Made by a program: the position numbers and the translations under genes
The notes under the pieces: model-generated
What the model was told of the DNA's origin: nothing
What the model saw: the letters and a program-made list of their open reading frames with translations, nothing else
The model's database searches: none
DNA from: Sthenelais limicola
Taxonomy: Eukaryota > Annelida > Polychaeta > Phyllodocida > Sigalionidae
Direction of reading: 5' to 3'
Length of the DNA: 64,000 nt
Assembly (NCBI GenBank): GCA_942159475.1
Contig: OW804096.1
Span: forward strand, 133,166,941-133,230,940
Shown: one piece after another, positions 11,111-52,866 of the stretch
Layout of the letters: each line of letters opens with the position of its first letter
Numbering within the stretch: position 1 is the first letter of the stretch

Positions 11111-11123
11111 ACACACAACTCTA

Positions 11124-14041: not shown

Positions 14042-14194
14042 GGTCGTTTGGCTGCGTTATTTCCACATCTGTAATTGGTTAAAATTTTCCCTCAGCATCC
14101 ATTATGACGTCTATATAAACCTATCGTGTTTCAATTTACCTATTATATGCGCTCCGTGCACATACCTTCTGATCTAACATATCGTAAGAGATAC

Positions 14195-14285: not shown

Positions 14286-14322
14286 TCTACATTTTGTATA
14301 TTTTGATACATTGGTTGTCACA

Positions 14323-23300: not shown

Positions 23301-26300
23301 GGGATGTCGCTCTACTCACAATCATGGATATATGCAATGATTGGAATTGTGAAAATGGATACCTTTCTACCTAATGTGACAAGTCGTAAATTATGAACTG
23401 GATACCTTTCTACCTAATATGACTGCCATTTCGCAACTGTAAGTAGCAACGTTCCTCATTCTCTTTACTACGTCCATGGCCAATCAACTGATGCCTATTG
23501 GGCTAATTTTTATATGAGAGATAATTTTATATCAACCCTGTACCCAATGTACCTAGAATAATACCTATCTACGTGTTCACTCGTCAACATTCACAAGCGG
23601 ACATACCCTGGGTACATACTCTTTATTTTTTTTCCTACGCCTTGACCTACTTTGAAGCCTGCACCTACATTTCGACCAAAATCAAAAATGGCGTCCTTTT
23701 ATCGCGCGCCTATTTTAACTAGTTTGTCCAGACTATTACCGCTATATTAATTTTGGTGTGTCTTAGGCTATGTGCTACTATCATATAAGTATGGAATCTT
23801 GTTTCTCCTTTTCATCCCCCCCCTCCCCTCCTACGTTTTGCTTTTGCTGTCTAATAATAGACATCCTCGCACAGGCTGTGCGAGGCAGCAGGAGTGTGTA
23901 TGCAGGTGCGCTTGGGGCGGTATTGGGAGATACCATTTTCGGCGCTTGTTGATATATTTCGTAGTGGCTTGTCTGGGAACTAAAACGCGGAAATGGCGCT
24001 CCATTCAAATCATATTTCATGAGTCGGTGGTGGTTAATGGGCTTATATCTTCTTTTCTTGACAATATTCTTCCAGTAATGACTAGCTGATTATGGGGTAA
24101 ACTATAGCCGCTGTGCAGTGTCTAGCGCCTACTTTATTGACGACTGCGTAGTGCGGTAGTTTATGCATGCGAAATATACGCCAATTTACCTGTACATTCA
24201 TAATACTATTTTCCTTTTTCATATTAGCCGTTCATTCTATGCCTTGATCTATAGGTACTAAATTCGAACCTAAATGAATTTTCACTGAAACTACTAATAC
24301 TACTTATATATCTATTTTCTCGTGACAGAGAGTCGCACATGTTGGAACCTAAATGAATTTTCACTGAAAGTACTACAATATCACTATAGACATTCTATAC
24401 ACATTGTCTACTGACAATCGCACATGTTGGTACATAAAACTTTCGCATGTTCAACAGTTGAACATAAATTAATGTCACTATAGACATTCATTCTATACCT
24501 TCTTTCTCTCACTAAAGACACTATCACACTTAATTATCATTGAAACATCGCTAAAAATAATCACTTTAAAATAAACGAAAATATGACTATATATATAATA
24601 TAATATATTCATTTTATATTTGCTTTGGGCACGCTATATACAACAACACGGGAAAGTAAGTGTGTGTGACGAGGGGGGGGGTTGTGGGACGGAATATACA
24701 ATGCTCTTGAGACATTTGGGTGGCCCTGAAAAGGGCCTTTTTTTTTGGCCCTGAAAAGGGCCTTTTTTTTGCTCCACTAGGTCTTCTTGGCCGATGGTGG
24801 CTTCACTCGGCGGCCTTTGGGCATACCTGGCAGAAAACAATTAGATAATTTAGTATACATAATCACAATTGTAATAAACGAATATATAATAAAATTATCT
24901 AAGTCATAGCTAATGACTTGTACAGACAGATCTACCTACACTAATTGACCGATTAACCTAATTACTTAATTACAAGCTTAATTTTCCTTAGTTGAATCAC
25001 AGTAGCATACACTTCAATCCAATCTCGTTATTCTTACTTACGTGCATTTTCCGCGGCAATGCGGTTATTCCTCTTCCGTCTTTTCTCCATGTCGGCATAC
25101 GTATCTTTGAGAAGTATTGCGTCTCTTCTCTCAGTCTCGTTCTCAAGTGTTCTATAAACGAATTGTAGATATGATATTAATTGAGAATTTTTTTTCTCCA
25201 TAATTCAACAGTATATATCGAATTTTTCGGTGTGAATTTTTCGGGGTAATGAAATTTGGGTTATTAGAGACGATTGGTGAAGTTGCATTCAATGCAACCT
25301 GTATTTCAATCTTATGTTGATCACATTGGAGTTGTTGAGGAAATGTACAATATACAGACTACTCTGTAAAGGTTACTCTGTAGACAGGATACTTTCCTAT
25401 CACAGAGATAATGTACAAAATGTTTAGTCGAAATACAAAGTCCCTCAACAATGATAAATGTCCTGTGGTTTTCGGAAAAACAGTAACTGAAGTAACTATA
25501 TACTGCCGACAATATTTACTCACTGAAACGGTTGTCTCTTAAATAACTATTACACCGTTCGAAATAAGAGCTTCTTGCCCAGGCAATTTGTCAAGTGAAT
25601 AACATATCATAGAACTCATTCTAAGCATTTTATCCGATGTGACGTCTTGATCTTATGTATCAATTTGATACATATATCTATACTGTAATACCATTGGCCG
25701 TACCAGGGGGGGGGGGGGGGCTGTTGTTGTTGCCTTGTTGTCTCAGGGCTTCTATTCAAAATGCATTTTTAGACTCAACGGGGCCTTAAATTTAAGACGG
25801 TCTCAAAATTGGTATTCAAACAACAATCAGTGATTGTTAACTTAATTTGTGGGGCTTTATTTGATTATTATCATTAAGGCAAACTAGCTGTTATGCATTG
25901 CAATGACATTCCAAACAGGCAAATCCAGAAGATTTCGACCACAAGTGTGCCCCCCCCCTAGACCTGCCCCTGGTATATCGATATACAATGTTCTAACCAG
26001 ACTTTTTTGCCACATCGGGGGCATGTTGACATCCAAACCAAATTCTGCCAACAATTTTCGTGGCTAAAGGATTCCCCCCTTCCCTTGAAATCTTTTGAAC
26101 ACTACACTTAAAATTTAGCCCCTATTAGAGGGTGCATTCTGGTGCATTTGATATAATCGGCAGGGTGCGACGAGATCGCCTCCCGAACGCCCGAGACGTG
26201 TTGATTTTGGCGTCGGGCAGGTAGATTTTTAATCTACCCGTCTTTGGACGGGTAGGTTTTTGGACTAACATTAGCGTACCATTTCAGTCTTCCTGAATAG

Positions 26301-29300
26301 ACGTTGGCAACGTCACCTCAAGTGTAATATTTGTTATGTGTTACAGAAAAAAAAGTCGCAAAATAATGCAATTTGAGATATCAATTTCAATGATGGTAAA
26401 CATTAGGTCACGTAATAAGTATTTCTAGATTTTAAGTTAGAACACCAACTCATACACCCAATTTTGTACTCTCTTGTATTTAACTATTTTTATTTAGCCA
26501 AACATTACGCGGTTACACATTTTTCTCAGATGTAGCTGTGGGAAACAATTAGATAAAAAAAAACAATAAAGAATATGTATACTACATCTTTTAGAAAAAA
26601 AACATAGATCAATACTAAGTATTCCTAGCTAATCAATAGTTGAAGAAGATAAAAAGCATGGAATCACACATTGTAATATGTAACATTTGATGGTCGCACA
26701 ATGCAAACCGGCATTCTCATACTATTTCATGACAGTCCCAATTACGGTGATAATTATGTTCAACAATAATAATATACCTCCTAGTCTAATACAGGAGGCA
26801 GTGATTAGTACAGTCAAAATCATGAAAAAATTCGCATCTATCATTCAGCTGAGGTCAGGGGGACACTACGCTGTCAAATATTTCTTGCAAGAACCCTGAT
26901 CAGAGGTCTTATCATTTCAATTTCTTGGTGTTCTTTATAATCATTATATCCATGTAAAATAACTACTTTGGTGCTTGCTGTTGTGCATTTTGAGACTGCT
27001 CAAAAATCTATTTTGTTTGTAAAAAGTGAACTCATATTCCTGTCCCAACCAATTATAATAAATACCGTATGCCAGTTTTTATCGTGGTTGAAACAAGATC
27101 TTTTTTTAGGGTATGCGCCGTATTAAGTTAATTACCACCTTCTTGAGTGCTCAATAACTCAGGACACAATGATTCAACTTCCAAATAAAAACTACTTCCT
27201 TATACGGATTCAATGTATCTACATTGATCTGTACTGGTCAATGCAAAATGATTACAAACTATTATATCTGTTATCTAACAATTGTCGAAGTAAAATATAT
27301 TTTTTACTCTACAACCCCCAGAAGACTCTTACCGAACTCATACGAAATGGTATCGACATTGATCTGTACTGGTCAATAAATAATTATTCGCGAAGCGAAT
27401 TTAAAGTCTGGCTTTTGAGAAAAAGACATGCATAGAATAACCTATTGCGTACGTTTGGTGACCTAGTACATGCATTTCTTTTCAAGCTATTTCTTTCATG
27501 TTTGGTAGATGGCTCAGGAAAACGGATTGTAGTTGAATAGGGCGATTTTAATTTGTAAATTGTTTTTCTTAAAAGATTTATTTCCAAAAGCGGTAAACCA
27601 CCTTCCAGGGTTTTTGTTAAGGTTTCGAGTAGGGGGGATTTGCATGGTAGTAGGGGGGGCCATTTCTGGTGTGAGGCCCTTTGTGCTTCGTGGGGGAGGG
27701 TGTGGGAGGGGGTTTGAGGGGGCTTCTGGTGTATTATCATCATAATTTCCACTAAAGATTTCAGTGTCAAGATTTTATACATTTTCCACTTCATGTTCAT
27801 ATATAAAACCTTTTCCTCATATTTTGAAACAAGCAATCAAAATTGTGGCTAGGCCTGGGAAGCCCATCTCTGGCAACCACTCAGAACATAGGCTCAATGA
27901 ATATATTTTGTGGAGGAGTCTTCTCACCTGAAATATTTAACAGCGTAACAGGGGCACACACAAGCTAAGGGGGTCTGGGCATGCACCCCCAGGAAAATTT
28001 TGAGGAAAATGAACCTGTTTTAGCGTTCTGCTGATTTTAAGGACCATCAGGGCAACCCCTTAAACATTAAAAGTTAAGCTCATAGCATACATTAAACTTT
28101 TATTTTCCTAGTCACCCTAACAATATTTTAGAGATATAGTTTTTCTAATAGGTAGCATAGTGTCATTGCACAATTAAATAATTTGAAAAAGAAGAAAATA
28201 GCATGCTTATTACCATCTCATGTCGAATGCATTAAAATCTTACGAGATATTGGCCTTACTACTTTACATTGAGTCTACTAACTACACACTTGCATCAATC
28301 ATTAGGCCGACCTTTGACATTCCCAAATTAAATTTTTATGGTTTCTGGAAATGATGAGGTAATGAGTAAATCATGATAGTCAGAAAGATTGACTTTTCTC
28401 AAATGCATTGATGAAATCAAGATTCGGAACGACAGGCTTTTTAATGTCAAAGGCATATTAGACTACTAGACCAGTAGTTCAGAAACTTGTGAAAAATGTA
28501 TAAATCTTACTGATACTAAATATATATCATCACATTCCCGATAGTGCATATCATATACATTACGCGAATTGAGAACATGTAAAAGAGCCCCAGCTATAGG
28601 GCGCCCCTATCCCCACCCCACCCCGCCTCCCTTCTCCCCATTGAAGTGTTGAGTTTTTTCAACAATATTTTATTATTATAATCATAGAATGATATTCACA
28701 TCTTACAAATGTTTTCAGAAATGACAGAAATGAGTTTAAAAGCAAGAATAAATGACGATTTATGTAATGATATCTCATTAGCAGGCTATATAGTATACTG
28801 GTACTCCATGAATGGAAACATAGTAGGCGAGGATTTTTCCTCGGGTCCCGGCTACTAACACAAACCCTGAGCCTTCGTATGCTTTGAAGTAAGATATTTA
28901 TCTCACCCTGACTTGGGTCTTTTAGTAGGCTGACTTGGCTGTCTTCTGGCTAGTACTGTATAGCCTGTCACCTTAGCTGCCTTATACCCTGGCCTGATAC
29001 CCTGACCTGATACTGCTTGACCCCTTCCAGCTAAGGAATGTGAGGATGGGCTAATGGGGTTAATGGACCTCCCCCCTAGTGACCTGTCCTCCCTTATCTG
29101 GTAATTAAGAGATCGCATATCAAATCGTATCGACATTGATCTGTACTGGTCAATTCAGAATGATTATAAATTATTATATTTTTTATCTAACCTTTGTCGT
29201 AAGTATAATATATTTTTTACTGTACAACCCCCAAAAGACATGTAACTCTAAATATGCCGCCCTTAAAACTAGAAGGGAAATGCATATGCTAGGGAGAGCT

Positions 29301-32300
29301 TTTTCCAGGGTAAAAACTGGGAAAAATATTGACACCCGAGGCATTGGTCTTAGAAATCTTACCAAAGGGAGAAAAATGGTAGTACCTCATCCCAAAAATG
29401 AAATGTTTAAAAAATCCTACATCTACAATATGGCAGTCTTATGGAATAAATTGCCGGACAAAACCCAGATTTTACAATCAAACAAGGAATTTAACCGATA
29501 TTTGAAGCAAATGTATCCATCTGAATACGACCAATATCTTAGCGAACCTATTACTGAAATAATTGATTGAACATTTGTGACCAGTTGTTTGTACCGAGTA
29601 TGTATGTATTTTATCCATGCTAAATTTACAGAGTAGTGAGTTGACCGATGTATGTATTTATCCATACTAAATTTACAGAGTAGTGAATTGACATAAACCA
29701 GATTTCGGGTATAGAACTGAGGTACATAATACCTAATTTTTAAAGATCGAGACATCGATGGGTAGGATGGCGGGGTGATCTTTGTTTAAGGATCTTATCA
29801 ATAATATCAATTGTATGTTAATGATGTTTTATTGCTCTAAAAATACTGTGACGATGCCTAGTAAATAATGGCAACGACTAAATTCCGTCCATATAGATTG
29901 TAGTACATAATATGTAGCCATATCATATTATAGGGATATCCCCCAGTAACTACTTCGGATATGTTGTTAATAATGAATTATGATATACCTGTTGTAAAAA
30001 TGTATGAACATAAATGGAAAGGTCTTAGAGTATACTAAGACTTAACTATTGCCAAAGTACTCACTGTATGTAAATTAGAACCAATAGAGCGTAACTCAGA
30101 TATAATTGTATATGTAAATCTCGAGACATGTAAGATATTTTATTTTATTTATTTTTGGACTCGGTGGAAGACCTACTCTGTAGAATTGTACGCCCATTTC
30201 ATGATTATGTAACTGTTGACAAACCATGAATAAAAATTCAATATATATATATATATATAAAGACCCTTACCGAACTGATAAAAAATGGTATCGATATTCA
30301 TCTCTACTGGTCAATTCAAAAACATTATGAGGGCTGAGAGACAGTTAATTTTGTTAATGCTGTGAATACCAGTCATTTATGTTTTTCTGTAATATCTTTC
30401 TATGTTTCGTATGTCAACATCGAGATTGTTCCATAATAACGCACTTTGCCTGGGGGACTCCATAATTAAGACTATCACTCAAGATTCAGTATCATTGCGA
30501 ACTGTTGTTTGTGTTCTCCCTGAGGGGTAGACTAAGTTACGCAACAAGCAAGCAAGTTGCCCTTAATAGCATATTTAGCTAAAAGTACTGATAACAAATC
30601 GTATCCATATTGATCTGTACTGGTCAATTATAACACACCTCGATTATGCCGGTATTTCCTGATATAGCATTGACTTTTAAATTATTTTTTCATGAGATTA
30701 TTCTCACTCTCCAGAAGTAGTTTCAATGTAATTTTCTTAAATGGTGTTTTTGGTTGTTTTCCCGAACTCTTTGGTGAATAGTAACACAAATAGCTTTCTT
30801 GGAGTCTTAACCTGCCATAACTCCCAACCCTTTAATGCCCCCTGTCCTAACCCTTTTTGAGGAATCCACTGCACAACCGTCTAGCCTCCGCGTTCACTAA
30901 AGTATATTGTTGGCGCCAAAGGCGCAGTGTATAGCGGTGCAAGCAAGGGGTGACATAAATATGGGGGTGGGGGTGGGGGTGGGCGGGGGTGTATAGGCTA
31001 CCAACAGACGAAGGGTTGACCTAGATCTTGGATTAGCATCACTTAAAAAAGCATGACCCGGGCAAGCCTTTACGTGCGAATATAAATTTCCGGAAAAATA
31101 TTCGTACACCATTTTAAACACTGCTCGAAATATATTGACGATTCATTTATTATATCATAGAATGCACCATTCCCCTCCTGCCGGCGTGCTAATGTTTAGT
31201 CACACGATAGAACTACTGTCTTTAAACCGAAGAGCGATCACTTTCAGATTTAGATGCAGGGCTCGAAAAAAACCTACCAACTTCAGCCCAAGATTTACTT
31301 GCCCGACCGAATTTGCACGATTATAAACTAAGGTTGTGTACATTTGCACGGGAATTTCATTGTAAGTAGACATCACAACAGGGGTTTGAAATCGGCGCCG
31401 TAGATATTTTCACTTGCCCACTCGGGCAAGTAACTTTAAATTTTAGTTGCCCGGAGCTATTTTTGCGAGACCTGCGATGTGATATAATGTTTCATAATGT
31501 TTCATCTAGCTCTATGAAATATTGCTGCCTGTGGAGGGCGACAGCCACACAGCGGGAGAGAGTTGAATAGTGCTATAAGTATGAATATGACCGGTATCGG
31601 CGTTATCTGAATCGGATAGAAACGACGGACACATGTATAAACAAATTGTCCTTGCTGTCAGTCAATTGAGGTGTCTTTGAAGCCCAGACTAGGAAGCGAT
31701 CCGTAATGCTCCGTAATTGAGTCCGGGACCCCGATGACTTTCGCTTAAATCATTACCTATGTTGACTCTTGCGTTTTTTCACCAAGTAGGCAAACACTTG
31801 TAAACACCAATCAATTAATTACTATGTTTTGTCACCTTCGCGCGACCGACTCGTGAGCGGGCCGTTTTAACCACTGTCTTAACTATTGTCATCAAGGGGA
31901 TATTGTTTCAAGCTTGTACACCTACCTAACGTTATCCTCCAGTTCGGGCTGATCTCGCTCGGCTTCTGCGAGACGCCGCTTCAAATAGTCGATTTCCTCC
32001 TGTCCTTCCTTCGCTGCCGTTTTTGCCTCTCTCGTTTTCTCTTCCAGCTCTCTGTTCGTCAAAAGCGAGATGTGGTCCTGACCGATCATCTCGCTGGAAT
32101 GAATGCTCTTTCGGATGTATCCCATAATTTTCAGTGTAGGCCTACGCCTACTGCTACTACTGCCTCTGCCGCCTCGCTTACCTGGTCACGTGACAGTGTA
32201 TCCACAAGTCTATGAACGAACTGATTTTGTGCAATTTTGAACAATTAATCATATATAATATTAAAATCCATATCACGAAATATATTCATCATGAACATGG

Positions 32301-35300
32301 ACAACATTCCGCAAGATTTATTCCCTATAATCGAAAGTAATGCTGAGATTTCACCGATTGTTTACTTTCACCACACTGCCGGATAGTCGGTATTGGGTGT
32401 GCCGTGACTTGGGGGACTCTCGCCCTTGACGACCATAGCAACCAAGCTTAAAAATCTCCAACTTTCCCCCTCGATTTCTTAAATTTTAAACAATTGTTGA
32501 AAAAACGGGACGAGTGACTGCAATGTATGAACAAGACTTGATATATCCATGTAAGATGATATAATTTTGACTCGTTTATGTATGGTTTCAAAGTGGTTGA
32601 AAAAATGTATTTTAGCGTTAGCGTCTATGGAACTGAGTTGGTGTATTAACCCCTCTCTCTCTGTCTCTCTCTTTCTCTCTGTCTCTGTCTCTCTCTCTCG
32701 CTGTCTCTCACTCTGTCTCTCACTCTGTCTCTCTCTCTCTCTCTCTCTGACTAAGAGAGTGAGTGAGTGAATGAGGGAGTGAGTGAGTGAGAGAGAGTTA
32801 GTGAGTGAGAGAGAGTTAGTGAGTGACAGAGTGAGGGAGGGAGTGAATCGGTGAGAGACAGTGAGTGAGTGAGTGACATACTTATACAATGACTACGAGA
32901 GTGAGTGAATGAATGAGGGAAGGAGGGAGTGATTGAGAGAGAGTTACTTAGTGAGTGAGAGAGAGAGGGAGGGAGTGAGTGAGGGAGAGTGAGTTAGTGT
33001 GACAGTCATTGAGTGAGTGAGTGAGATACTTAGATAATCACTACGTGAATCAGTTAGTGAGGGAGGGAGTGAGTGAGATAGAGTGAGTGAGTGAGAGTGA
33101 GTAATTGATGGAGGGAGTGAGTGAGTGAGACTTAGTGAGTGAGACTTAGTGAGTGAGATTTAGTGAGGGAGGGAGAGAGTGAGTTAGTGTGATTGTGAGT
33201 GAGTGAGTGAGTGAGATACTTAGATAATCACTACGAGAGTGAGTGAGTGAGTGAATGAGTTAGTGAGGGAGGGAGTGAGTGAGATAAGAGTTAGTGAGTT
33301 TTAGACGCGATTTGGTCTGATTCTGGGGGGTATTTTTTACCTTATAGACCACTCCAACGCCACTTCCTCACCTAGACACGGACACAGCAGTTTGTTGACG
33401 TGCGGGTCACTTTCGAATGAAATCCTCCGTGCGCTATATAGGCCACCGTACACAATGCAACGCCAAGTGAATGTGCACATGAGTGGCTATGCCGAAGGGT
33501 CTCCACATCTCTTCCGGTCGCACGTATAGGTTCTGAACTCGCCATTCATTTATTGCTTGATTCCCGTCGACTAAATCTTCGCTATCGGGCTCAAACACTA
33601 TTTAAATCATTTCTACCGATTCAAATGTTTTATTTATTTCTTTTTTAAGTCCCTAGACACACGCAACACGGCATTCGAGTACCGGAAGTGTCCGATGCTT
33701 TGGATAGCAAGCAGCGGAACCTTGCGAAAACAGGCCGGCTGGCTGAACATAAATAATTCGTCAACATTAGCGAATACGCACCTCTGATTGGCTGTTTCTC
33801 CGCTAAGCCCCGCCCACTTCACTTGGCCAGCCGTCGCGGTATCATTTAGATTTCGACTAACGCGGTGTGCGATTCTTTGGATAGCTCTGTCTCTCTCTCT
33901 CTATCTATATATATATCCGTCTCTATCGTCTCTCTCTCTCTTTCCCCCTGTCGCATTCTCCCTCTCTGTCCATCTCTCTCTATATCTCTCCGTCTCTATC
34001 AATAATACAGAGACATTTTTTATTTTATATCTTTCAGATCGGCCTTATGTGCAGTATCACTTCTCCACAATCCCTCTACCTCATTGTGCAAAATAATGGC
34101 AATTTGATGAGAGGCAGTCAGTCTGTCTCTGCCAAAACAGTGGACACCGCAAACATTTTACACACACAGACCAAGAAAAGGTCATAGATAGGTTGCCCGT
34201 GGTGCAGAAAATAGTGAACATTTTATCAATTCGATACGTCATTTGAGTCGATATGTGTGGCACTAATTATTGATAAGGAATATTTGTTTACAAACCTTCA
34301 ATTGTATAATGACATAAAGAGATACTGACATAACACAATACCTATTCCGCGTAATCTGACTTACATTCCCAAACATATATGTCATTTTATACACCTCATA
34401 TCACTTCGGATCACTTTTTTCTGCTCGTCAATCTGCTCGTGTATCTGTACTCTTTTGAATAAAAATACAAACAACAAATTACTCATTCCTTCCCTTTAAT
34501 CTTTTGATTGCCGTTCACTGTACTCCTCCTTTGATCTAGGCGACACTAAGTCAAGTATGTTAATAATATTTATGGAAATTATCATTAATTCAGGCATATA
34601 TATATTGGCTGTTTAATGTACAGTACAGTGCAAGTTTGCAAAAAAGCTTCGAAATGCTTAAGAATTCCATAATAAATAGTAATGGTTTGCCCTAATATTT
34701 GTGGAAATAGACCGTTGTATAATGTCTGATGATGTGTTCCAGATGGCGCTGATTGTGTCATATGCACACTGGGCGAGTTTTTCCAGGAACTGGCAGAAGC
34801 ACAGGGGTCGATTAACCCGCAGAAGGTCATAGACATGTACGCAGGTGAGAAAGCATTGGTAAAATCATAATGTGCCAATCTCTAAAATATAACGTACATT
34901 TCTACTTTCATACTAACATATATTGGTATGTACGCAACGCACATTTACTTTTTTTTTTACAGTGTAATAATATAATATATTTATAACTTTAAAGCAATCG
35001 ACAAGGACTACAACGTCGGGACGTTCCATGACCCCAAATTCTTCATGATGAAAGTTGGTGGTGCTTACAGAGAGGCTATTCAAACGTATGTATAGTTATA
35101 TTGCACATATATTTATTTCCCTCATATTTTAAAATAGGCAACACATATATTTGACGTTTGCAGCTAAATAAAATAATACTGATACCACATTTTGTTGTGT
35201 TTTTTATGCAAATGTTATAATTTTTTGACAGCTTTCCTGGTGCAGGCGACCACCCGTTTGGAATGTTCAGCATAATTGTCGAGCAAAAACGTACGTATTT

Positions 35301-42734: not shown

Positions 42735-42811
42735 TTGTAGATCGAAAAGAATTAAGTCATGCTATTTACAATTATTATATTGAATAAGACATGACTGACA
42801 TGACATTATTT
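42735..42811 (+). other. 3' flank of the giant gene
   Basis: Right after the TAA stop... region is AT-rich with a short inverted repeat (AAGTCATG / CATGACTGACATG). Unlike the island's small genes, no histone-type stem-loop is present. No canonical AATAAA is seen before the tandem array (only AATAAG at about 42783), so the polyadenylation site is unclear. Confidence 0.4.
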
Positions 42812-43790
42812 AGTAATCTCTGTAAGTAAAGAGTGGGAGAGATAGTTAAGAAAAGGAGAGGGGGTTGTGCATTCGTTATTTGGACTGCGATATATTTTGC
42901 AATGCCATGGTCTGTACATCATTACATATATATTATTTAGTAATCTCTGTAAGTGAAGAGTGTGAGAGATAGTTAAGAAAAGGAGAGGGGGGTTGTGCAT
43001 TCGTTATTTGGACTGCGATATATTTTGCAATGCCATGGTCTGTACATCATTACATATATATTATTTAGTAATCTCTGTAAGTCAAGAGTCAAGAGTGGGA
43101 GAGATAGTTAAGAAAAGGAGAGGGGGGTTGTGCATTCGTTATTTGGACTGCGATATATTTTGCAATGCCATGGTCTGTACATCATTACATATATATTATT
43201 TAGTAATCTCTGTAAGTGAAGAGTGTGAGAGATAGTTAAGAAAAGGAGAGGGGGGTTGTGCATTCGTTATTTGGACTGCGATATATTTTGCAATGCCATG
43301 GTCTGTACATCATTACATATATATTATTTAGTAATCTCTGTAAGTCAAGAGTCAAGAGTGGGAGAGATAGTTAAGAAAAGGAGAGGGGGGTTGTGCATTC
43401 GTTATTTGGACTGCGATATATTTTGCAATGCCATGGTCTGTACATCATTACATATATATTATTTAGTAATCTCTGTAAGTGAAGAGTGGGAGAGATAGTT
43501 AAGAAAAGGAGAGGGGGGTTGTGCATTCGTTATTTGGACTGCGATATATTTTGCAATGCCATGGTCTGTACATCATTACATATATATTATTTAGTAATCT
43601 CTGTAAGTCAAGAGTCAAGAGTGGGAGAGATAGTTAAGAAAAGGAGAGGGGGGTTGTGCATTCGTTATTTGGACTGCGATATATTTTGCAATGCCATGGT
43701 CTGTACATCATTACATATATATTATTTAGTAATCTCTGTAAGTCAAGAGTCAAGAGTGGGAGAGATAGTTAAGAAAAGGAGAGGGGGGTT
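42812..43790. repeat. Tandem array of alternating 128/135-bp units directly behind the giant gene
   Basis: AGTAATCTCTGTAAGT starts at 42812, 42939, 43067, 43202, 43330, 43465, 43593 and 43728, so spacings are 127, 128, 135, 128, 135, 128 and 135. The longer unit has an extra 7 bp (CAAGAGT), giving a higher-order dimer of 263 bp. Units are almost identical. Each carries a CTGTAAGT donor-like site and an ACATATATATTATT segment. The open frames (CIRYLDCDIFCN...) are an artefact of the repeat. Confidence 0.95.
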
Positions 43791-46193
43791 TTAGCGAATA
43801 GGATAGGAGGGAAAGAAGTATCGCAGGTAAGTATAAGGTTCCAATTATTTTCGTCGGGCACATTTATTTTCACTTTGTCTGGTGTGAGTTATGGCTTAGT
43901 TAAATTTTTTTCATATATAACTTGTTTAAATGTTATAGTGTGAGTCCGATTTATGGTTTGGGTTATAGCGGTCAAAACTGGCTACTTTTCCTAGCAGGAA
44001 ATATCTAAGTCCGAAGAGGAAAGAACATGGCAATATTTCCGCCTTAAATGATGTCAGATTATTTCAATTATTTCCAGTTTTCTCTTATCCATAGTTGTAC
44101 ATAATTATGCTTTCTCATTTCTAATTGTTACGCATTGGTATGTATTGTATTTGACCAAGTGATTGATTAATTCATTTCTGAAATTGATTGATGATTTCAA
44201 GATAAATACCAGTGTTGTCAGCACTGCAGCAGGCGGGAATTGCGATGTATTAGTCTATTAGTAGATTGCGATGTATTAGTCTATTAGTCAATTACTTTTA
44301 GACACAATTAGTTGTGTAGACAAGTTGATTAAAGCTCCATTCCCAGAAGTCTGGGATAAAAATGTCAAATGCCATTTCTTTAGCTACCTATTAACCTGCC
44401 TGAAACTTTTGATAATTTTTTGAAGATATTAAACAGAGGTTCAAATACGCTACATATGGTGGCAGATGGCAGCACTGAGTAGTGGTTGTTGCTCTATATT
44501 CTCTATTGTACAGACTCGACTGAGTGCTGCCACCTACCACCACCATGAAAAGCAAAACGGCCAAACAATTTTGAAATCGAAGGCAGGATAATCTAATAAA
44601 TACTTGAATTTACAGCTTTAGCAAGATTGTCATTATGTGAGAGACCCCTGAATGTGACTTTTGGTAACTAATTTGAAGGTAATTACAACAAAAAACAAAC
44701 AATTGTGTCAGGAATGGAGCTTTAAGTAGATAGAATAAGTGGCATTCAAGTGGAGGGAATAAAAGTAGTTTTAAGTAGATAGAATAAGTGGCATTCATCA
44801 TAAAATCTATCACGTCATGTGAAATATTGTCGAATAAACATTTATAAAACAGAATTTTTTGTGATATTATACGTAAGAATAAGATTGTTTTTAAGTCGGA
44901 AAAAATAGTGGCATTTTTGTGACAGTAGATTTATGGAAAAAAGTTTAGTTGAAAGCCACAAGCAGTCTCCATGTGTCAATATTGGATATTATTCGAAACA
45001 AATTTCCAGTCGACATAATTTGATTAATTACTATCAAGTGCATAAAAAATAAATTGTTCCTAAAAGTTGAATTGGAGACATTGTTATAGTATTATATAAT
45101 AGCATGAATACTGCTTAAAGCATGTTTTCTGCACTGCAAAATTGAAAGTACAATATTAAATTATTCATTTGATCATCTTTGCGATATATAATATTTGATG
45201 TGTGATATATAATATGAGATATACGAATATGTAACTGTGCATAGAACATGCTGCTAGGGCCCGATATTTGCTCTTAGCAAATGTCGTTTCTTCCAATGAA
45301 AGGGGAAGACGTGCTAATATCGTTTTAATGTATAGAAGTTATAATCAATATGTTGTTCATTGCAGAATGGTATGCTGGTGCGAAGGGAGATGAGAGTTAT
45401 TATTATGGAAATTATTATGGAAATTAAGTTAATAATAAGTTTATATTAGTCTATAATAACATTTATTTTGACCGTCTGTCATGGCGCCATGTGGGATGTA
45501 TAATATATTGGAGGGAAAAATACATTTCTCTAATCGATTTGTATGTATAGATTCAAAATGTGGTCGTGTAGAATTATTACAAATATCTGAAAAGAGTCCT
45601 GTTTTGAATATTTTATCAAAATGAAGAGATTAATATTTTTCATTATATAACGACCATATAATATGGAACGAATGTTCTTGCTAGTTAAGGATATGAACAT
45701 ATTGGGTGATGGTAGAAAGGGCCCTATGTCGCCTAAAAATACATAATTTAATGTACGAGTACTAATGTAAATTAGACATAATAAATCATGTAAGGTTGAT
45801 TTACCATTTTTATGGTTGAAATAAAGCATATTTATGATGATTATTTATGATGATTAAGATAGCAAACGGTAGTGATAGTCCACATTCAAAGGAATTATTT
45901 GATGTATGGCATGTCTTGTTACCAATTGGGTATGGGTAACTTCTAAAATAAAGCCTTTATGAGCCTCTTGCTGCTCTACTATTAACAAGATCGACCTATG
46001 GTTAATATAATCTCGTTGGTCCTATTGGTCAATGCCCGATGGACTGTACAAGGTAGGAGGGGAGAATGCGAAATTTGATCTGATCAGCAGTGGTCGAAAT
46101 AAGGAGAAAAATTAGCTTGCCCCTCGTGCTTGCCATTCCTTCAATAAAAGATCGTTTGTTCTAACACAAACTATTTTTTCATTTCAATTGCAG
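43791..46193. other. Island spacer without a supported gene
   Basis: AT-rich. An imperfect hairpin with arms GGTGGCAGATGGCAGCACTG / AGTGCTGCCACCTACCACC lies at 44458-44543. A short direct repeat TTTAAGTAGATAGAATAAGT lies at about 44720 and 44771. The half-palindrome GTTAATATAATCTCGTTG, shared with 7509-7552, lies at about 46002. Confidence 0.5.
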
Positions 46194-46339
46194 CACCAAC
46201 TACGACGTTGTCCCAGACCGCCTTCTACTTAAAGCAGATGAACTTTACTGGCAGCCCAACAACACATTTACAAACATTGACGCCATAAAGACGCGGGGAC
46301 CCGGTCACCACACCTCACCTGACAGCACGTGTTATTCAG
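46194..46339 (+). CDS. Orphan coding exon, function unknown
   Basis: A 146-nt segment between a strong acceptor (TTTCAATTGCAG) and donor (GTAAGT) is open in only one frame, reading NYDVVPDRLLLKADELYWQP...GPGHHTSPDSTCYS. It is GC-richer than its surroundings, as expected of coding sequence. It enters in phase 2 and leaves in phase 1, so it does not join the next exon-like segment at 46812 directly (that needs phase 2); an exon is missing or one of the two is dead. No domain recognised. Confidence 0.5.
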
Positions 46340-46437
46340 GTAAGTTAATTGCTCCAATGTAAGACCAAATGTATATTCGTTATAATAAATATTAATAGTT
46401 AAATAGGCACGTTATGTAAAGTAGTTAACATTTTAAT

Positions 46438-46750
46438 GGCCCTGAGGAGGGCCTTTCTTGTTGGCTTTCTTGGTTGGTCGTTGTCAGACATTTTGGTGGC
46501 CCTGATGAGGGCCTTTGTGACCTTTCTTGTCAGTCCTCGCCATACAATCATAATAAATGAGGAAATCATATAATTTATTTAACTTATAACCAATGACTTC
46601 TACTTGTACCTATACTAATTGACCCCTTAAACTAATTGTTCCATCAATTACCAACTTCATTTTCTTTAATTAAATCACAGTAGCAGTCACTTTTCAGTCA
46701 ATCAATTACAAACTTAGTTTCATATTGTTGCTTTTATTTGGGCGTTTCTT
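46438..46750 (-). pseudogene. Diverged duplicate of the 3' end of the coiled-coil gene, with decayed stem-loops
   Basis: In minus sense, GGCCCTCATCAGGGCCACCAAAATGTCTGAC at 46513-46483 matches the region at 24737-24707. The stem is intact, but the loop has become CATC, and the CAAGAG box is lost. A second stem-loop, GGCCCTCCTCAGGGCC at 46453-46438, is present 60 bp downstream. The upstream part (46558-46700) matches intron 2 of that gene. The basic last exon is not conserved. I read it as a dead duplicate; a fresh short frame MARTDKKGHKG overlaps the stem-loop by chance. Confidence 0.6.
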
Positions 46751-46811
46751 GCCATATATCTTCTCGACTACAGAAAAATTACGTTTAATTATTATCATTA
46801 TTTGTTTCAAG

Positions 46812-47052
46812 GAACGACTGCTGCAAACGAACATGTACATCGGTCCAAGTGGATCAACACCTGAGAAATGCCGTACAAGACATAGTCAGCACTAAAATCT
46901 CTGGAGAAACCCGAACACAAGCAGGAAATGAACGGTGGTTTGCAGAACGTAGGAACCGGATCACAGCCTCTAAATTTATAACTTTTATGATTACTGACAA
47001 ATATATTGAAACGGGTATCTGTTCCTGCCACCAAGTATTGAAAAAACAATGA
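46812..47052 (+). pseudogene. YqaJ-type exonuclease exon, truncated
   Basis: After the acceptor TTTCAAG the frame reads NDCCKRTCTS, VDQHLRNAVQDIV, GETRTQAGNERWFAERRNRI and TASKF. The N...WF.ERR.RITAS pattern is the start of YqaJ-like (lambda exonuclease-like) recombinase domains, which are often carried by eukaryotic mobile elements and DNA viruses. After SKF the frame changes to unrelated sequence and stops at 47052; the catalytic Asp/Glu-x-Lys part is absent here and I find no following exon. Probably a relic of an exonuclease gene of the island. Confidence 0.55.
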
Positions 47053-47930
47053 GAGGATTGCAAGAATGAAGTGTAAAGAATAAACAGCAGAATCTCCATA
47101 TCCTTGAGATTTTAGTGGTCTTACAATGTCCCTATTCAGCTCGAGATGTAACAAATTCCAATGCTATTAAATCATTCTGTCGTAAGAAAAGTGATTATTT
47201 GTAATGAATAAATATGATTTGAATGAAAATGCAACGTGTACTTACCTTTTTTCTGTTCCTTCATGTGAGTGAACTTCGTTACTATCGGTGTTTAATTAAA
47301 TTTTGAAATTCACACGGGGAGAGTCCGTTGGAAAAACATTTCTAGAAAATTGGGGCCCCGACACCCACATGTACGTTTGAGTTCGAGATTGGTGTGTTTG
47401 GGGAAATTTAAAAGCGCTGTGTACTTACGTATTTTCTGATCATTGATGATGGATGTGACTCAACTTCGTTGGTATGAGCTTGTATAGTATCGTGACGTAT
47501 AAATATTAGATTATTGCCCTTTATTAAAATTAGCCCGAATAGAAAATTGTTTAGAGAAAAATTCATGAGGAGAGGAGATGGGTTATGAATCATTAGCGCC
47601 CCCGCCCCCCTCCAACAAAACGCAAGAGACAAACATAACGAAAATTAATATATTAAAATTGCTATTATTTGCGCATCTAACTCACATTATTGTTTCGTGA
47701 CAATAATTGTAAAATATAAGATATATAGTAATATAATATTGGGGCCCCGAGATAAATATTAGTCTAATGGACACAAATACGTAACGAGTAACAATATTTC
47801 ATAACGAAATTGGCTATTATGTGAGTACTTAGTTGTATTTGTTGGTCGAACGCCGGATTTTTTTATTATACTAAGGCTTATGCTAGGTGGCGCCACTAGG
47901 CTTATTTAATGTATGAGTTGCATGTTGCTT
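47053..47930. other. Island spacer, no gene supported
   Basis: AT-rich with GGGGCCCCGA motifs at about 47352 and 47741. No exon or RNA gene seen. Confidence 0.45.
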
Positions 47931-47931
47931 G

Positions 47932-48498
47932 AGGGTTGACCCAGGTGGCGTTAGGAGTAGTATGAGGGTTGTTGTATGGTTCACCCAGGTGGCGTTAGGA
48001 GTAGGGTGGCGTAGGTGGCGCCACAAATAGTGGTAGTATGTGGGTTGAGAATGGATATTGATTAAATTGTAGGCATAATAAATTATTAATTGGTCTTGAC
48101 AAATTATGTATGCCGCATATTGAGGGTTGACCCAGGTGGCGTTAGGAGTAGTATGAGGGATGTCGTATGGTTCACCCAGGTGGCGTTAGGAGTAGGGTGG
48201 CGTAGGTGGCGCCACAAATAGTGGTAGTATGTGGGTTGAGAATGGATATTGATTAAATTGTAGGCATAATAAATTATTAATTGGTCTTGACAAATTATGT
48301 ATGCCGCATATTGAGGGTTGACCCAGGTGGCGTTAGGAGTAGTATGAGGGATGTCGTATGGTTCACCCAGGTGGCGTTAGGAGTAGTATGAGGGTTGTCG
48401 TATGGTTCACCCAGGTGGCGTTAGGAGTAGGGTGGCGTAGGTGGCGCCACAAATAGTGGTAGTATGTGGGTTGAGAATGGATATTGATTAAATTGTAG
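47932..48498. repeat. Tandem array of about 190-bp units with ACCCAGGTGGCGTTAGGAGT motif
   Basis: Three units start at about 47932, 48122 and 48313. Each holds two or three ACCCAGGTGGCGTTAGGAGTA copies, a GTGGCGCCAC palindrome and an AATGGATATTGATTAAATTG segment. It lies just beyond the 3' end of the NADAR gene. Confidence 0.9.
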
Positions 48499-48590
48499 TA
48501 TGAGTATTATAATATATTATTGGGCGTGACAAATTATTTGAACAATTACGTTGAGCGGTGGTTATTAATTAATATTGTGTAGTGTTAGGT

Positions 48591-48649
48591 GGGTGTGTGG
48601 AATAGAGTCAACTCTTTGTATAAATTGGTAGCCCTGAAAAGGACTGTTT
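48591..48649 (-). terminator. Histone-type 3' processing signal of the NADAR gene
   Basis: In minus sense, AGTCCTTTTCAGGGCT (48645-48630) forms a 6-bp stem (one G-U pair) with a TTTC loop, 25 nt after the stop. It is followed by ACCAATTTATACAAAGAG, giving the ACCA flank and a purine-rich box resembling a U7 histone downstream element. The whole 59-bp block, including the inverted repeat AGAGTCAACTCT, is identical to 49892-49950. Confidence 0.85.
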
Positions 48650-48670
48650 CGAAAGGAATCAAAAGGACTG

Positions 48671-49117
48671 TTAATTATTAGCGTTGATGGCACCAAGTCT
48701 CAGTCCAGTTCTCAATTCCATCAGGAGTTGACCAAAAATGTTTTGGCCTTCCCCATTTATACAACCCCAAAAATGATCGCGCACTGGATGTGTGATGAGG
48801 AGAGAGCCTGTAGACAACAAGCAGTGCCGAAATTCTGGCAGACATTGAGCCTTAGCCCAGAGCATGTCGCACATGATGTCTTCTTTGATTTTATCCCAAG
48901 CATGGGAGTTTGGCACGGAGAGACGTTTAGCATGTTTTCCCGATGTACAGGAAAGAATGAAGGCAGCATGCTCGAAGTACCCATGAAACAACGCTTTCTC
49001 GTACTGGTAGATAATTTCAAGTGACTTTGCTTGCACAGAACGAAAAAAAATAAAATCGTTCGAGCAGTAAAAATTAGAAAGTACGTTAGAGGCACCGCGA
49101 ACAGAGATTGATTCCAT
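48671..49117 (-). CDS. NADAR/YbiA-like domain protein (148 aa), probable ADP-ribose glycosidase
   Basis: A single-exon gene, ATG at 49117. The NADAR pattern runs the whole length: NVLSNFYCSNDFIF near the start, YQYEKALFHGYFEHAAFIL (helix with the usual E/YQ..KA), HAWDKIKEDIMCDML, CLLSTGSLLI, then DHFWGCINGEGQNIFGQLLM ending in ELR. Length matches the family (E. coli YbiA is about 160 aa), so it looks complete. NADAR proteins in bacteria remove ADP-ribose from guanosine in DarT/NADAR modules, or hydrolyse riboflavin intermediates. Here it could reverse ADP-ribosylation of element DNA; this is inference. The usual SxEH(Y/H) motif is altered (FFRSVQAKSLEIIYQYEKA, possibly a small insertion), so activity is not certain. 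It ends in a histone-type stem-loop and neighbours the SGNH gene in tandem orientation. Confidence 0.82.
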   Translation of the reverse strand: MESISVRGASNVLSNFYCSNDFIFFRSVQAKSLEIIYQYEKALFHGYFEHAAFILSCTSGKHAKRLSVPNSHAWDKIKEDIMCDMLWAKAQCLPEFRHCLLSTGSLLITHPVRDHFWGCINGEGQNIFGQLLMELRTGLRLGAINANN

Positions 49118-49891
49118 TCTCGAATATGTTACTATATGTGGCTATAGCTGTATGTAGGAGTGAAGTGAGAGTGAAAATGAGTGTGTAGGGTTTTATAGTG
49201 TTTGTCAGTCAGCCGCAAGTTTGTTAGACCCGCATCACATTACTAGTGGGAGTAAAAGTATATAAAGGGGAAATGATTGTAGACAATGGTTATGTCTAGA
49301 CAATAGGCAATAAAAGTGTTGTTTAGGATATGCATCAAAGAGGTATCGAAGCGTAAATAAAGCGCTGAAATATTTATTTCAAAGTGCAATCATTATGCAT
49401 CAAAGAGGTATATAAGCGGAAATAAAGGATGCTTTTAGTTCAAAGTATAAGTGCTCATTTTAGTCCCGCATCACATTAATTAATAAAACAACTTGTCTGA
49501 GGCATTGCGGGGAGGGGGGGGGGGGAGAGAATCGTTGGGTATAATTAGTGGAAGAAGTGTGATTGATATTAAATTCGTTTAGCAGGTTGGGAAATAAAGT
49601 AGACATATTGGAATTAAAGTTACAAATAAAAAAAATGAAGACTGCGGGACAGGCATTATGGCCTATTGCGTCACTGTAAATTGATTCGTTATATTTTAAA
49701 AAAGTATAAAATGAACAATTCAGAACAATTCAATTCATTGAGCACTTCAGATAAAGGGCCGAAGGTGGGTGTATGGTGGTTAGGGTTTTTAATTAATTGT
49801 ATAAATGAATAAAATAAAGTTATATATATAGGGATAATTGTTGATAATATAGTTATGGTTACGTTTGTGATTAATAGTTAGGGTTAAGTTA
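49118..49891. other. Spacer between NADAR and SGNH genes
   Basis: Contains ATGCATCAAAGAGGTAT repeated at about 49330 and 49395, a CCCGCATCACATTA repeat at about 49230 and 49464, and a G-run at 49512. The NADAR promoter should lie near 49120-49250 (TATAAA-like on the minus strand, not pinned down). Confidence 0.4.
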
Positions 49892-49950
49892 GGGTGTGTG
49901 GAATAGAGTCAACTCTTTGTATAAATTGGTAGCCCTGAAAAGGACTGTTT
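49892..49950 (-). terminator. Histone-type 3' processing signal of the SGNH gene
   Basis: Minus-sense AGTCCTTTTCAGGGCT at 49946-49931, 16 nt after the stop, followed by ACCAATTTATACAAAGAG. It is identical over 59 bp to the block behind the NADAR gene while the coding sequences are unrelated, so the 3' module itself was duplicated or conserved. Confidence 0.85.
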
Positions 49951-49962
49951 TGTTTTGCATAT

Positions 49963-50598
49963 TCAGTTTGAAAAGTTGGCGCTAATGGCACGAATCAGAT
50001 TTGATGTCCAGTTCATTTTACCCTCAAGGTTGAGGTGACATCCGTCTGGGAGCCGATCATATCGATGAGCAAATGTGCCTGACTTCCTTCTGCGATGGAC
50101 ATAGGTAGCTAGCCACGGGGTTATGCACGAATTGTCACGGTTGAACTGCGTGATGCGTGCATTGAGATCAAGCACAAGTTGATCGAGCTCATTTTGCCTC
50201 GAGTGTGGTTCGTTTAGCATGTTATAATTTTGGAGGTTGATACCGGTAACATGAGCAAAGGTGATTAGGGATGTGGGTGCAATTTTTTTGGTGAGGTGGT
50301 GTACATCTGTTATGTGCTGATAAATGTTGGTCAGTGCATAGTCAGAAGTACAATACCGTAGGTCGGTAAGGCGTGTTTCTCTGTCACGAATAGTCACTTC
50401 ACATACGCCTGTAGTGTATATGATGAGGTCTGGATTGTAGTGAAGAATGACATTTTTTGCTTGGAGGAATGCTGACAGATGGTTTGCTCCGGGATGAACA
50501 CTAACTTTTATCGATGACCTGGGTACAATAGATCGATGAAGGAGACGTTGTAAGCCTGTTCCCCTAGAGTCACTTATAACAAGTGTTTTCCGAGTCAT
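49963..50598 (-). CDS. SGNH/GDSL-hydrolase-like protein (211 aa)
   Basis: I chose the ATG at 50598 (MTRKTLVISDSRGTGL); the frame is open further upstream to an ATG at 50730, but that part is low-complexity Tyr/Asn/Leu-rich. Block I is ISDSRG (nucleophile Ser in D-S-x-G). The middle has PDLIIYTTGVCEVT (block III-like, with the usual G-x-N altered). The end has LPDGCHLNLEGK, a D-x-x-H block V. Such SGNH domains occur as accessory esterase-like domains in several retro- and DNA transposons and in Oskar. A role in the element is unknown; the changed block III makes catalysis uncertain. It is a single exon on the same strand as the NADAR gene and ends in the same histone-type signal. Confidence 0.72.
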   Translation of the reverse strand: MTRKTLVISDSRGTGLQRLLHRSIVPRSSIKVSVHPGANHLSAFLQAKNVILHYNPDLIIYTTGVCEVTIRDRETRLTDLRYCTSDYALTNIYQHITDVHHLTKKIAPTSLITFAHVTGINLQNYNMLNEPHSRQNELDQLVLDLNARITQFNRDNSCITPWLATYVHRRRKSGTFAHRYDRLPDGCHLNLEGKMNWTSNLIRAISANFSN

Positions 50599-50730
50599 GT
50601 TGTATTGTAGATGTAAGATGTAGATGTAGTTGTAATTGTCATTGTTAAGGTTATATATATGTAGTAGTTGAGTTGACTGGAGAAACATGAGTTGGTCAAT
50701 CATGTAATGACACAAGAGATGTTGCAACAA

Positions 50731-52402
50731 CCGACTCGTCTGTCGCTGATGATCATTTTTTTAAATAATATAGGGGGTGGGTGGGGGATGATAATGAGTG
50801 TGTAGGTCGCACAATGTAATGACACAACAGACTTGCCACATGGATAATGGCCAGCCAATATGCATTTGTATGATATGACACAAGCAACTCGTTGATGAGG
50901 CATTTTGTAATGATGTAGAGAATTTGAATTTGAATAGAGAATTTGTGGTTTGTTTGTAATTGGTAATAGGTAATCATTTTATTTTAAGAAATAAAATGAT
51001 CTATTGATCGCTCTTTTACGCGAGAAGTTAAAGTCTACCATACGTGTTTAGCTTAGGAGAGGTCTCTTTATTCAAAGGAAATGATCTGTTTAAAAGCCAT
51101 AATGATAATAAGTATTCAATTCGACTCCAGTAATGATTAAATAGTTTAGTAGCCAATAGAGGCAACCAAGAAGTAATTAGGTACGCTGTGTATAGGCGGA
51201 TAATTTATAATGATTGAAAGACGCTGTTGGTTTGATGCCGGGTCACCGCAGTCACATACAAAAATGACACGCATGCTCGTTCCCATTTCCACTGAGATAG
51301 TGGGTCTTTTACGGAAAGTTCGCATGTCCTCGAAAATCTGAAAAAGGGGTCTTCGCGGAAATGGAAAATAGGGATGTTAATTCAGTTGGTGAAGTGGAAA
51401 GTTGGTTTGTGACATTAAAGCTTGGTAAAGTTATGATAGAGATAATCCGGGGACCAAATTTGCTCTATTGTGTGGGTTTTGGTCATTTGATCGTGGGGTT
51501 TATAAAGCGCTCTTAGCACAGGAAACTCAGAGCATCTATGCTGTCATGTGGGCGCATGTGGGTTGGTCCCTTCTGTTTTAATTATCATTTGTGGGAAAGT
51601 AAATGAATGGGCACAGGGTCAAAGACTTTATGTAAATATTAATAAATGAGGGACTGAATGATTATACATATCTCTGTTTGCGTGTTTCATATAAACATCT
51701 CGAAATTTTACTTATTTCTCGCCAATTTTGTAACTTGATCATCATTCGCTGGACGGAAATACACGAATATTGAGAGTTATACATTGACAATTGTATTATA
51801 AATGATTAAAATCAGCTTTAAAGAGAGACAACTTAAAACAAAAAGTTGAAAAATTAAATCGAACAAAATCTAATAAATGTAAATTAATGAGCAATTGTGA
51901 GGGTTCATTGTTAATAGTAGGCATATGGATAGTGATTTTGGCTTGTAAGTTATAACATTGTGATGATGTCTTTCTTATTTATAATTCTCTATACATTAAA
52001 AATAAGAGTGAAAAAATGAAGGTTTACCATGCTACTTCATTTACTTGTGAGTAAAGTATATCAGCGATAAATGTTTAAAAGGGGTTAATTTTATGTCTTT
52101 CGAAATGTCAGCGTTCTAATGAAAAGGGGGTTAATTCTAAAAATGTCAGCGTTTTCATGGAAAAAAGGATACGTTTTCATGGAAAAAAGGATACTTTTTC
52201 ACCTCAAAATCCGTATGTTTTCTGAGAGGTGGAACAAGCCGATGTCCTACTTTTTGTATCTGAGTGGGGGGGGGGGGGGGGGGGGCGGGGTCGTTGCTCA
52301 ATTGTGATTGGCTACTGTCTACCGTACACTTGTTTGGAGAGTGTTTAAGTATAGAGTATTTAATATAGTGTAATTGGTAAAGGGGAGACATAAATATCCA
52401 AA
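50731..52402. other. Spacer upstream of the divergent SGNH and coiled-coil genes
   Basis: This is the intergenic region between the minus-strand SGNH gene and the plus-strand gene at 52403, so both promoters should lie in it. A short direct repeat TGGAAAAAAGGATAC lies at about 52157-52194, followed by a G-run at 52266. TTTAAGTATAGAG at about 52344, 60 bp before the ATG, could be a TATA element of the plus-strand gene. Confidence 0.4.
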
Positions 52403-52804
52403 ATGCCACATTGCGAAAGAACCAATCCGTGGGAAATGACAGCGGAAGAAATTGAGCACTTCTATATCCATAGAATGGAAGACACAGGCCTCACCACGGT
52501 TACCGCGGACGACAAGGACAAAATCATGCAATTCATTATTGCTGTTGCAGAGGAAAGGCGGTTGCAGAAGAAAGTGGCGGTACTGGAAGAAAAAATAACA
52601 AAATGTCGTCAAAAACAAGAACGGGCGATAAGGAAAAAGCGAGTCGAAGCAGTGGCTAAATACGGAGACCATATGCAAATGCTTCAGTGGTCAAGAAATA
52701 TTTTTACAAAACAACTGAACGACAATGTCATAGATAGGCTTAAGGCTGACATTGTGCTAGAGTCGAGGGGCATAAGATCAATTGACTTTGTATTCAAGAA
52801 GTGA
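52403..52804 (+). CDS. Small coiled-coil protein with histone-type mRNA end (133 aa)
   Basis: A single exon from ATG 52403 to TGA 52804. The N-terminus (CERTNPWEMTAEEIEHFYIH) is acidic. The middle is a strongly charged helix (AVAEERRLQKKVAVLEEKI, then QKQERAIRKKRVEAVAKYG) with heptad spacing and likely forms a coiled coil. The C-terminus is LESRGIRSIDFVFKK. No family is recognised. The start is supported by the long frame and the histone-type stem-loop 25 nt after the stop. It resembles in size and character the 119-residue protein at 24.8-32.1 kb, but I see no clear sequence homology. It may be a DNA-binding or structural accessory protein of the element. Confidence 0.72.
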   Translation: MPHCERTNPWEMTAEEIEHFYIHRMEDTGLTTVTADDKDKIMQFIIAVAEERRLQKKVAVLEEKITKCRQKQERAIRKKRVEAVAKYGDHMQMLQWSRNIFTKQLNDNVIDRLKADIVLESRGIRSIDFVFKK

Positions 52805-52828
52805 AAAGCCGAAAGTCGATAACCAAAA

Positions 52829-52866
52829 AGTCCTTTTCAGGGCTACCAAATAATATCAAGAGATGA
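52829..52866 (+). terminator. Histone-type 3' processing signal of the 133-aa gene
   Basis: AGTCCTTTTCAGGGCT at 52829-52844 (6-bp stem, TTTC loop), 25 nt after the stop, followed by ACCAAATAATATCAAGAGATGA. The A-rich 5' flank, ACCA 3' flank and CAAGAGA box all match the histone pre-mRNA pattern. Orientation agrees with the gene. Confidence 0.87.

Follow-up and report, generated by a model that had tools for sequence, protein, structure and literature searches.

Replication-dependent histone pre-mRNAs are processed at their 3' ends by a dedicated machinery, in which SLBP binds a stem-loop, the U7 small nuclear ribonucleoprotein (snRNP) binds a box, and the transcript is cut 4-5 nt past the stem (excerpt of PMC7026596). 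Among DNA transposons, Zisupton makes an 8-bp target-site duplication (TSD), and Kyakuja has 7-bp TSDs and no inverted repeats (excerpt of PMC12730594). A giant element of medaka, Teratorn, combines piggyBac with a herpesvirus (excerpt of PMC5601938), and the beginning of that abstract makes no mention of histone-type ends. Here we describe a transposon of about 42 kb in a 64,000-nt stretch of the Sthenelais limicola genome (C3:133166941-133230940 of the host genome; hereafter the window), in which four non-histone genes carry a 3' signal of the type found on the host's histone genes. The four are a NADAR gene, an SGNH-like gene and two genes for small, apparently coiled-coil proteins, referred to as g24 and cc52.

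Histone-type 3' ends behind four non-histone genes

Behind the stop codons of g24, NADAR, SGNH and cc52 stands, on the sense strand, a 16-nt hairpin followed by an ACC flank and a CAAGAG or CAAAGAG box (Table 1), and all four signals of the original prediction, which had been made from the letters of the window alone, were confirmed in place and orientation. The NADAR, SGNH and cc52 hairpins share one set of letters and are followed by ACCAA; that of g24 has another and is followed by ACCCA. Two of the predicted distances needed revision. The box, said to come about 8-10 nt on, begins 11-12 nt past the stem in all four tails, and the proposed stop-to-hairpin range of 14-25 nt holds for NADAR (25 nt), SGNH (16 nt) and cc52 (24 nt) but not for g24, whose end is a tandem pair of hairpins inside a perfect 25-bp duplication: the first begins 14 nt past the stop, and the second, which bears ACCCA and CAAGAG, 39 nt past it. 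The proteins had been called unrelated and are so as far as tested, g24 and cc52 showing no detectable similarity; domain searches matched no histone domain in the g24, SGNH and cc52 proteins. Of the proposed protein labels, NADAR was borne out by PF08719, whereas a Pfam search gave the SGNH label, which comes from motifs read by eye only, no support, and the coiled coils are apparent. An AlphaFold model of the SGNH protein, predicted from its single sequence, had a pLDDT of 36 and could not be used.

A descriptor consisting of the hairpin, ACC and CAAA?GA, drawn up after the sites had been seen, matches four times in the window and not once in 300 simulated 64-kb sequences (150 of Markov order 1 and 150 of order 3), on which ground a chance origin of the tails, already judged very unlikely, was rejected. 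That the hairpin arms covary was likewise upheld: across 15 tails from the element and the host, pairing is kept in each of the 90 stem cells, and two of the six pairs are changed on both sides. A shuffle control was exceeded in three of five measures, not for double-changed pairs (246/500) or pair types (454/500). The scan with the Rfam histone-hairpin model RF00032 that had been suggested as a check came out in favour of the prediction at one site, g24, which lies above the gathering score of 34 bits, but not at cc52, SGNH and NADAR, which lie below it (E 0.0042-0.048). A covariance model built from ten element tails only (R1), run on 12 sources, finds host H2B (50.8 bits), H4 (36.1) and H3 (33.8) in addition to its own members, a relic at 46.4-46.5 kb and the first g24 hairpin; the NADAR, SGNH and cc52 hairpins, as members of the model, score 65-71 bits with it. 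The relic belongs to a second, diverged g24-type 3' end, with hairpins at 46513(-) and 46453(-), no box at the usual spacing and CAAGAAAG 25 nt past the first.

The host's own H2B, H4, H3 and H1 genes bear the same type of end. H4, for which a typed human H4 query gave ten identical full-length matches on C9 and C94, mostly in one tandem array, ends in GGCCCTGTTAAGGGCC, then CCCACATTTTCA, then CAAGAG; H2B ends in GGCCCTCATCAGGGCC, then CCCACAATATCT, then CAAGAG, its box reading TCTCAAGAG; and H3 ends in GGCCCTCATCAGGGCC, then CCTATTATATCT, then CAAGCA, its box reading TCTCAAGCA. Two H1 genes, which have a linker-histone domain, show GGTCCT/AGGACC hairpins, ACC flanks and CAAAGAG, and one of their boxes runs on as TTGA to give CAAAGAGTTGA, common to NADAR and SGNH. 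Since g24 shares its stem, the TCTCAAGAG box and the spacing with H2B, its box is of the H2B type, and by the same comparison with host letters the NADAR and SGNH boxes are of the H1 type. The AAG core lies 13 nt past the stem in host H4, H2B and H3 and in all four element tails, and 14 nt past it in the two H1 genes. The host flanks read CCC in H4 and H2B, CCT in H3 and ACC in H1. One host H1 gene (L121:450-490) has two tandem hairpins ahead of one box, the same oddity as is seen at g24.

As for poly(A) signals within 600 nt past the hairpin, NADAR has neither AATAAA nor ATTAAA, and AATAAA occurs at 583 nt for g24, at 552 nt for SGNH and not at all for cc52. Upstream of the genes, CCTACACACTCATT(T/A)TCA stands before both NADAR (~49.18 kb) and SGNH (~50.80 kb), and ACACTATAAAA is found upstream of NADAR and likewise of host H4.

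The transposon, its copies and the spread of the tails

The island that carries these genes had been predicted to be mobile, and it is a transposon of 42,204 bp: its ends were located exactly, two of its copies are flanked by 8-bp TSDs, and near-identical copies lie elsewhere in the host genome, which was searched over 1.13 Gb in 161 contigs. Perfect TSDs stand on both sides of the C2 copy (GGAATACC) and the C8 copy (GTTTGTCT), that is, in two of the three copies of which both ends were seen, C7 giving the right end only. The window copy has no TSD at 11022 and 53225, perhaps as a result of recombination between copies. Stretches of 6 kb at C2, C7 and C8 align, small gaps aside, to 21.3-27.9 kb of the window with an identity that rounds to 100%. 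When 20 probes of 250 nt along the C2 region were compared with the window, 14 had 100% matches, located between 11.9 and 53.05 kb, one matched at 72% over 125 nt and five had no match. The order of the matches is preserved, with shifts of up to 0.9 kb that reflect differences in tandem-repeat number between copies; at the left end the comparison also reveals a gap and repeats that differ. Blind searches for terminal inverted repeats and TSDs (left, 29-37.3 kb and 25-37.3 kb; right, 42.7-63.9 kb) yielded nothing, the left end being at 11 kb, outside the ranges searched, and the ends were obtained from the comparison of copies. No pairing is seen between the element ends; the best inverted repeat (52 nt at 92%) is subterminal.

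The KDZ-associated transposase has Pfam matches to CxC4 (28.5 bits, cut-off 26.9) and Ulp1 (58.8 bits, cut-off 20.7), with no match to a catalytic core among the Pfam results listed. A 301-aa piece of it recurs inside an 1821-aa open reading frame (ORF) in four copies, with identity of 100% after rounding and slightly lower scores at C8. At C6, C1 and C5 (89-95%) it lies in frames that are shortened or interrupted, and weaker fragments occur elsewhere; a 39% relative is a 1987-aa ORF on C3 (C3:23783319), and the phage collection gave no relative of the transposase. The four copies encode identical (100%) NADAR and SGNH proteins, and cc52 is identical in five. SGNH-like ORFs occur in at least 150 places genome-wide, many of them ~230-250 aa long. 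Neither an SGNH or NADAR relative nor an exact NADAR or SGNH tail was found in the viral contigs, where the general histone-hairpin pattern matches nine stretches, none with CAAGAG or CAAAGAG within 40 nt, and the protein database had no relatives of SGNH or NADAR.

The genome search with RF00032, in which the best 75 of 198,962 candidates were scored and a listing threshold of E<=0.001 applied, gave 62 places. We inspected 36 of them, which comprise two host H1 genes, 28 g24-type ends, assigned by tail and flank sequence and with no histone ORF ahead, and six ends behind three small ORFs. Annotators should be aware that the top Rfam histone-hairpin matches in this genome mark transposon g24-type ends, not histones: the ten best (40.7 bits, all inspected) are all g24-type ends of the element and its relatives. 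The three small tailed ORFs encode 109 aa (L036/L119/L120), 148 aa (L123) and 118 aa (L125/L126), and their proteins have no Pfam domain above cut-off and no significant similarity to one another or to g24 and cc52. Box variants CTAAGAG and ATAAGAG occur in other tails, with the AAG core 10-14 nt past the stem (for L123 counted by eye, the script having picked an earlier AAG).

The suggested check for the same ends in related elements found them in g24-type copies and in a cc52 copy with 93% amino-acid identity, in which the sequence from hairpin through box is unchanged. Among seven diverged g24-type copies, compared in 15-column bins, pairwise identity is 93-98% from loop through box, 83% in the 5'-arm bin and 39-76% in most flanks. 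Some 98 nt past the g24-type hairpins (window ~24640), CCCGTGTTGTTGTATAT is unchanged in seven diverged aligned copies. A tandem array at C5:94409000-94428800 (L019, L020) is made of near-identical units, each with a g24-type 3' end.

Table 1 Position of the transposon, its tailed genes and their 3' signals in the window
Feature	Position	Strand	Remarks
Transposon, 42,204 bp, CAGTATACTATACC to GTGCATAGGCACTTC	11022..53225	.	ends by comparison with C2, C7 (right end only) and C8 copies
g24 exon 1	31926..32125	-	open exon with splice donor; hand-made gene model; apparent coiled-coil protein, 119 aa in total
g24 exon 2	25042..25151	-	splice sites in phase
g24 exon 3 with stop	24777..24826	-	phases fit
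g24 first tandem hairpin, without ACC flank or box	24747..24762	-	
g24 histone-type hairpin GGCCCTTTTCAGGGCC	24722..24737	-	RF00032 40.7 bits, above gathering score
g24 downstream box CAAGAG, 12 nt past stem	24704..24709	-	box and spacing equal those of host H2B and H4
Transposase ORF, KDZ-associated, 1821 aa stop to stop (CxC4, Ulp1)	37269..42734	+	Pfam; length retained in 4 copies
Two relic hairpins, second diverged g24-type 3' end	46438..46513	-	homology to 24.7-25.0 kb; model R1 30.7 and 23.4 bits
NADAR gene, intronless	48671..49117	-	PF08719 65.9 bits
NADAR histone-type hairpin AGTCCTTTTCAGGGCT	48630..48645	-	RF00032 23.3 bits, below gathering score
NADAR downstream box CAAAGAG	48612..48618	-	CAAAGAGTTGA also in one host H1 gene
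SGNH-like gene, intronless, 211 aa	49963..50598	-	ORF; label from motifs read by eye only
SGNH histone-type hairpin AGTCCTTTTCAGGGCT	49931..49946	-	RF00032 25.2 bits, below gathering score
SGNH downstream box CAAAGAG	49913..49919	-	
cc52 gene, intronless, 133 aa, apparent coiled coil	52403..52804	+	ORF; 6 genome places
cc52 histone-type hairpin AGTCCTTTTCAGGGCT	52829..52844	+	RF00032 26.1 bits, below gathering score; retained in 93% copy
cc52 downstream box CAAGAG	52857..52862	+	

Elsewhere in the element, a UCH (ubiquitin-hydrolase-like) gene begins at 14200-14463 (+), with a Pfam score of 24.2 bits against a cut-off of 23.9, and possible YqaJ/alkaline-exonuclease-like exons lie at 46200-47049 (+), where the Pfam match is below cut-off and similar DNA occurs in L032 and L041. 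Host exons for an OST-HTH/LOTUS domain and for TMIE flank the element, at 4959-5243 (-) and 57184-57453 (-), and indicate that the host is an animal.

Proposed use of the signals and rival explanations

At the level of sequence, the signals, their match to host H2B, H4 and H1, the exact ends, the two TSDs and the conservation of the signal in related copies are established, and they support the view that genes of a mobile element which do not encode histones bear complete histone 3' processing signals. We are fairly confident that the 42-kb transposon carries four such genes whose mRNAs would be cut after the hairpin and would have no poly(A), the host SLBP and U7 machinery likely making this cut in place of poly(A) addition. 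The host genome does contain SLBP, as judged from an exon match to PF15247 (56.9 bits, above cut-off, positions 31-70 of 70). SLBP would bind the element hairpins, the U7 snRNP would dock on CAAGAG or CAAAGAG, and cleavage would fall 4-5 nt past the stem. The element mRNAs would then follow histone rules, being abundant in S phase, eggs and early embryos, and the accessory proteins (small apparent coiled coils, NADAR and SGNH-like) would be made at germline or embryonic DNA replication, when transposition pays most; we infer that they serve transposition at that time. The g24-type gene, which carries the tail across diverged copies, was probably its first bearer, the tail being placed later behind NADAR, SGNH and cc52 in this lineage.

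Several observations weigh against such a use of the signals. The core host histones have CCC or CCT flanks and GTTA or CATC loops, where the four element signals have ACC flanks and TTTC loops, and the host H3 box is CAAGCA. The host U7 small nuclear RNA was not identified by family model or pattern searches: the U7 family model matched neither the host genome nor the controls, pattern matches numbered 5 versus 11 in a reversed control and, in a second search, 17 versus 16, none of the candidates inspected (5 of 5 and 10 of 17) had a convincing U7 3' hairpin, and the best candidate, after selection for the motif, reached 24.4 bits against a cut-off of 34. Other blocks of the g24 end (-142 to -113, -22 to -8 and +98 to +142) are conserved as well, at 81-100%. 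ATTAAA stands 69 nt behind the cc52 hairpin and 137 nt behind that of SGNH. The transposase gene has neither a hairpin tail nor, within 600 nt, a poly(A) signal; the absence of poly(A) signals therefore says little. At nine other NADAR places inspected the tail is present in one (98%) and missing from a 95% copy and from seven places at 53-64%, and at 20 other SGNH places it is present in two (98% and 96%, the reading frame of the latter running through the tail) and missing from a 95% copy and from seventeen places at 28-48%. These 29 places make up a small fraction of the scored matches, of which 150 were NADAR-like and 151 SGNH-like; among the 29 the tail is limited to near copies and therefore belongs to the element family, not to such genes generally, and its loss in a 95% copy of each gene, together with its absence from relatives, means that it is not indispensable to NADAR and SGNH.

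These losses, and the lack of a tail in the inspected NADAR and SGNH relatives, would also suit a passenger origin, in which a single captured histone 3' end was duplicated behind several genes, where it is unused or its mRNAs are mostly polyadenylated downstream. The NADAR and SGNH tails are indeed near-identical (84 nt at 90%), as after recent copying, and the ATTAAA behind cc52 is placed as this explanation would have it. We nevertheless regard it as unlikely, given the high identity from loop to box across the seven diverged copies, the compensated stem changes, and the correct side, orientation and spacing of the signals on proteins without detectable similarity, even where the box letters differ. 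Less probable again is that histone-type ends serve many ordinary host genes and that the element is nothing special: no recognisable host gene besides H1 was met among the 36 inspected RF00032 places, and two of the three small tailed ORFs recur on more than one chromosome, although those 36 were taken from 62 places among the best-scored candidates and the L123 and L125/L126 ORFs were not placed in elements.

We give very little credence to a structural role, in which the hairpins would be terminal or subterminal repeats that are bound by the transposase and merely resemble histone ends. The signals come after stop codons, the model built from element tails finds host histone ends, and the element runs on past the g24 hairpin for 13.7 kb and past that of cc52 for 381 nt, to its ends at 11022 and 53225, even if an inverted-repeat search pairs the hairpins, the outer ones pointing outwards, and a subterminal-type tandem repeat common to related copies lies just beyond g24. 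In its terminal-repeat form the explanation was rejected.

Processing of the element mRNAs as histone mRNAs is thus the reading we prefer. With less assurance, we lean towards a more general form of it, suggested by the same signals, in which giant transposons of this genome disguise their accessory genes, those for a class of small element proteins and for NADAR and SGNH-like proteins, by means of the histone 3'-end system. The host would then express them at the times and places of histone synthesis, in S phase, eggs and cleaving embryos, outside poly(A) control; this would be the first use of SLBP and U7 that is both non-histone and selfish. If true, the histone 3'-end code would be portable and open to hijack by a selfish element, mobile DNA would have a means of coupling the expression of its genes to DNA replication, and the tails would provide a natural test of the form required of hairpin, flank and box.

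Comparison with known systems

The separate parts of this arrangement are known, and we found no record of their combination in the open-access literature: among the PMC papers listed by the searches, no title or abstract beginning reports a histone-type 3' end on a transposon or on another non-histone gene. Like replication-dependent histone genes, the tailed genes have a 16-nt hairpin, a flank and a purine box at the host's own spacing, with the box letters of H2B, H4 and H1; unlike them, they encode proteins that are not histones, are borne by a transposon and, in the case of g24, contain introns. With the KDZ superfamily (Kyakuja, Dileera and Zisupton) the element shares a transposase with Ulp1 and CxC4, the latter named for KDZ transposases. 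It resembles Zisupton in its 8-bp TSD but, unlike Zisupton, lacks clear terminal inverted repeats, and the lack of inverted repeats is a likeness to Kyakuja; it differs from the superfamily in its size of 42 kb and in its NADAR, SGNH-like and coiled-coil genes with histone-type ends. Teratorn, finally, is likewise a giant animal transposon with much cargo, but its transposase is a different one and its cargo is viral.

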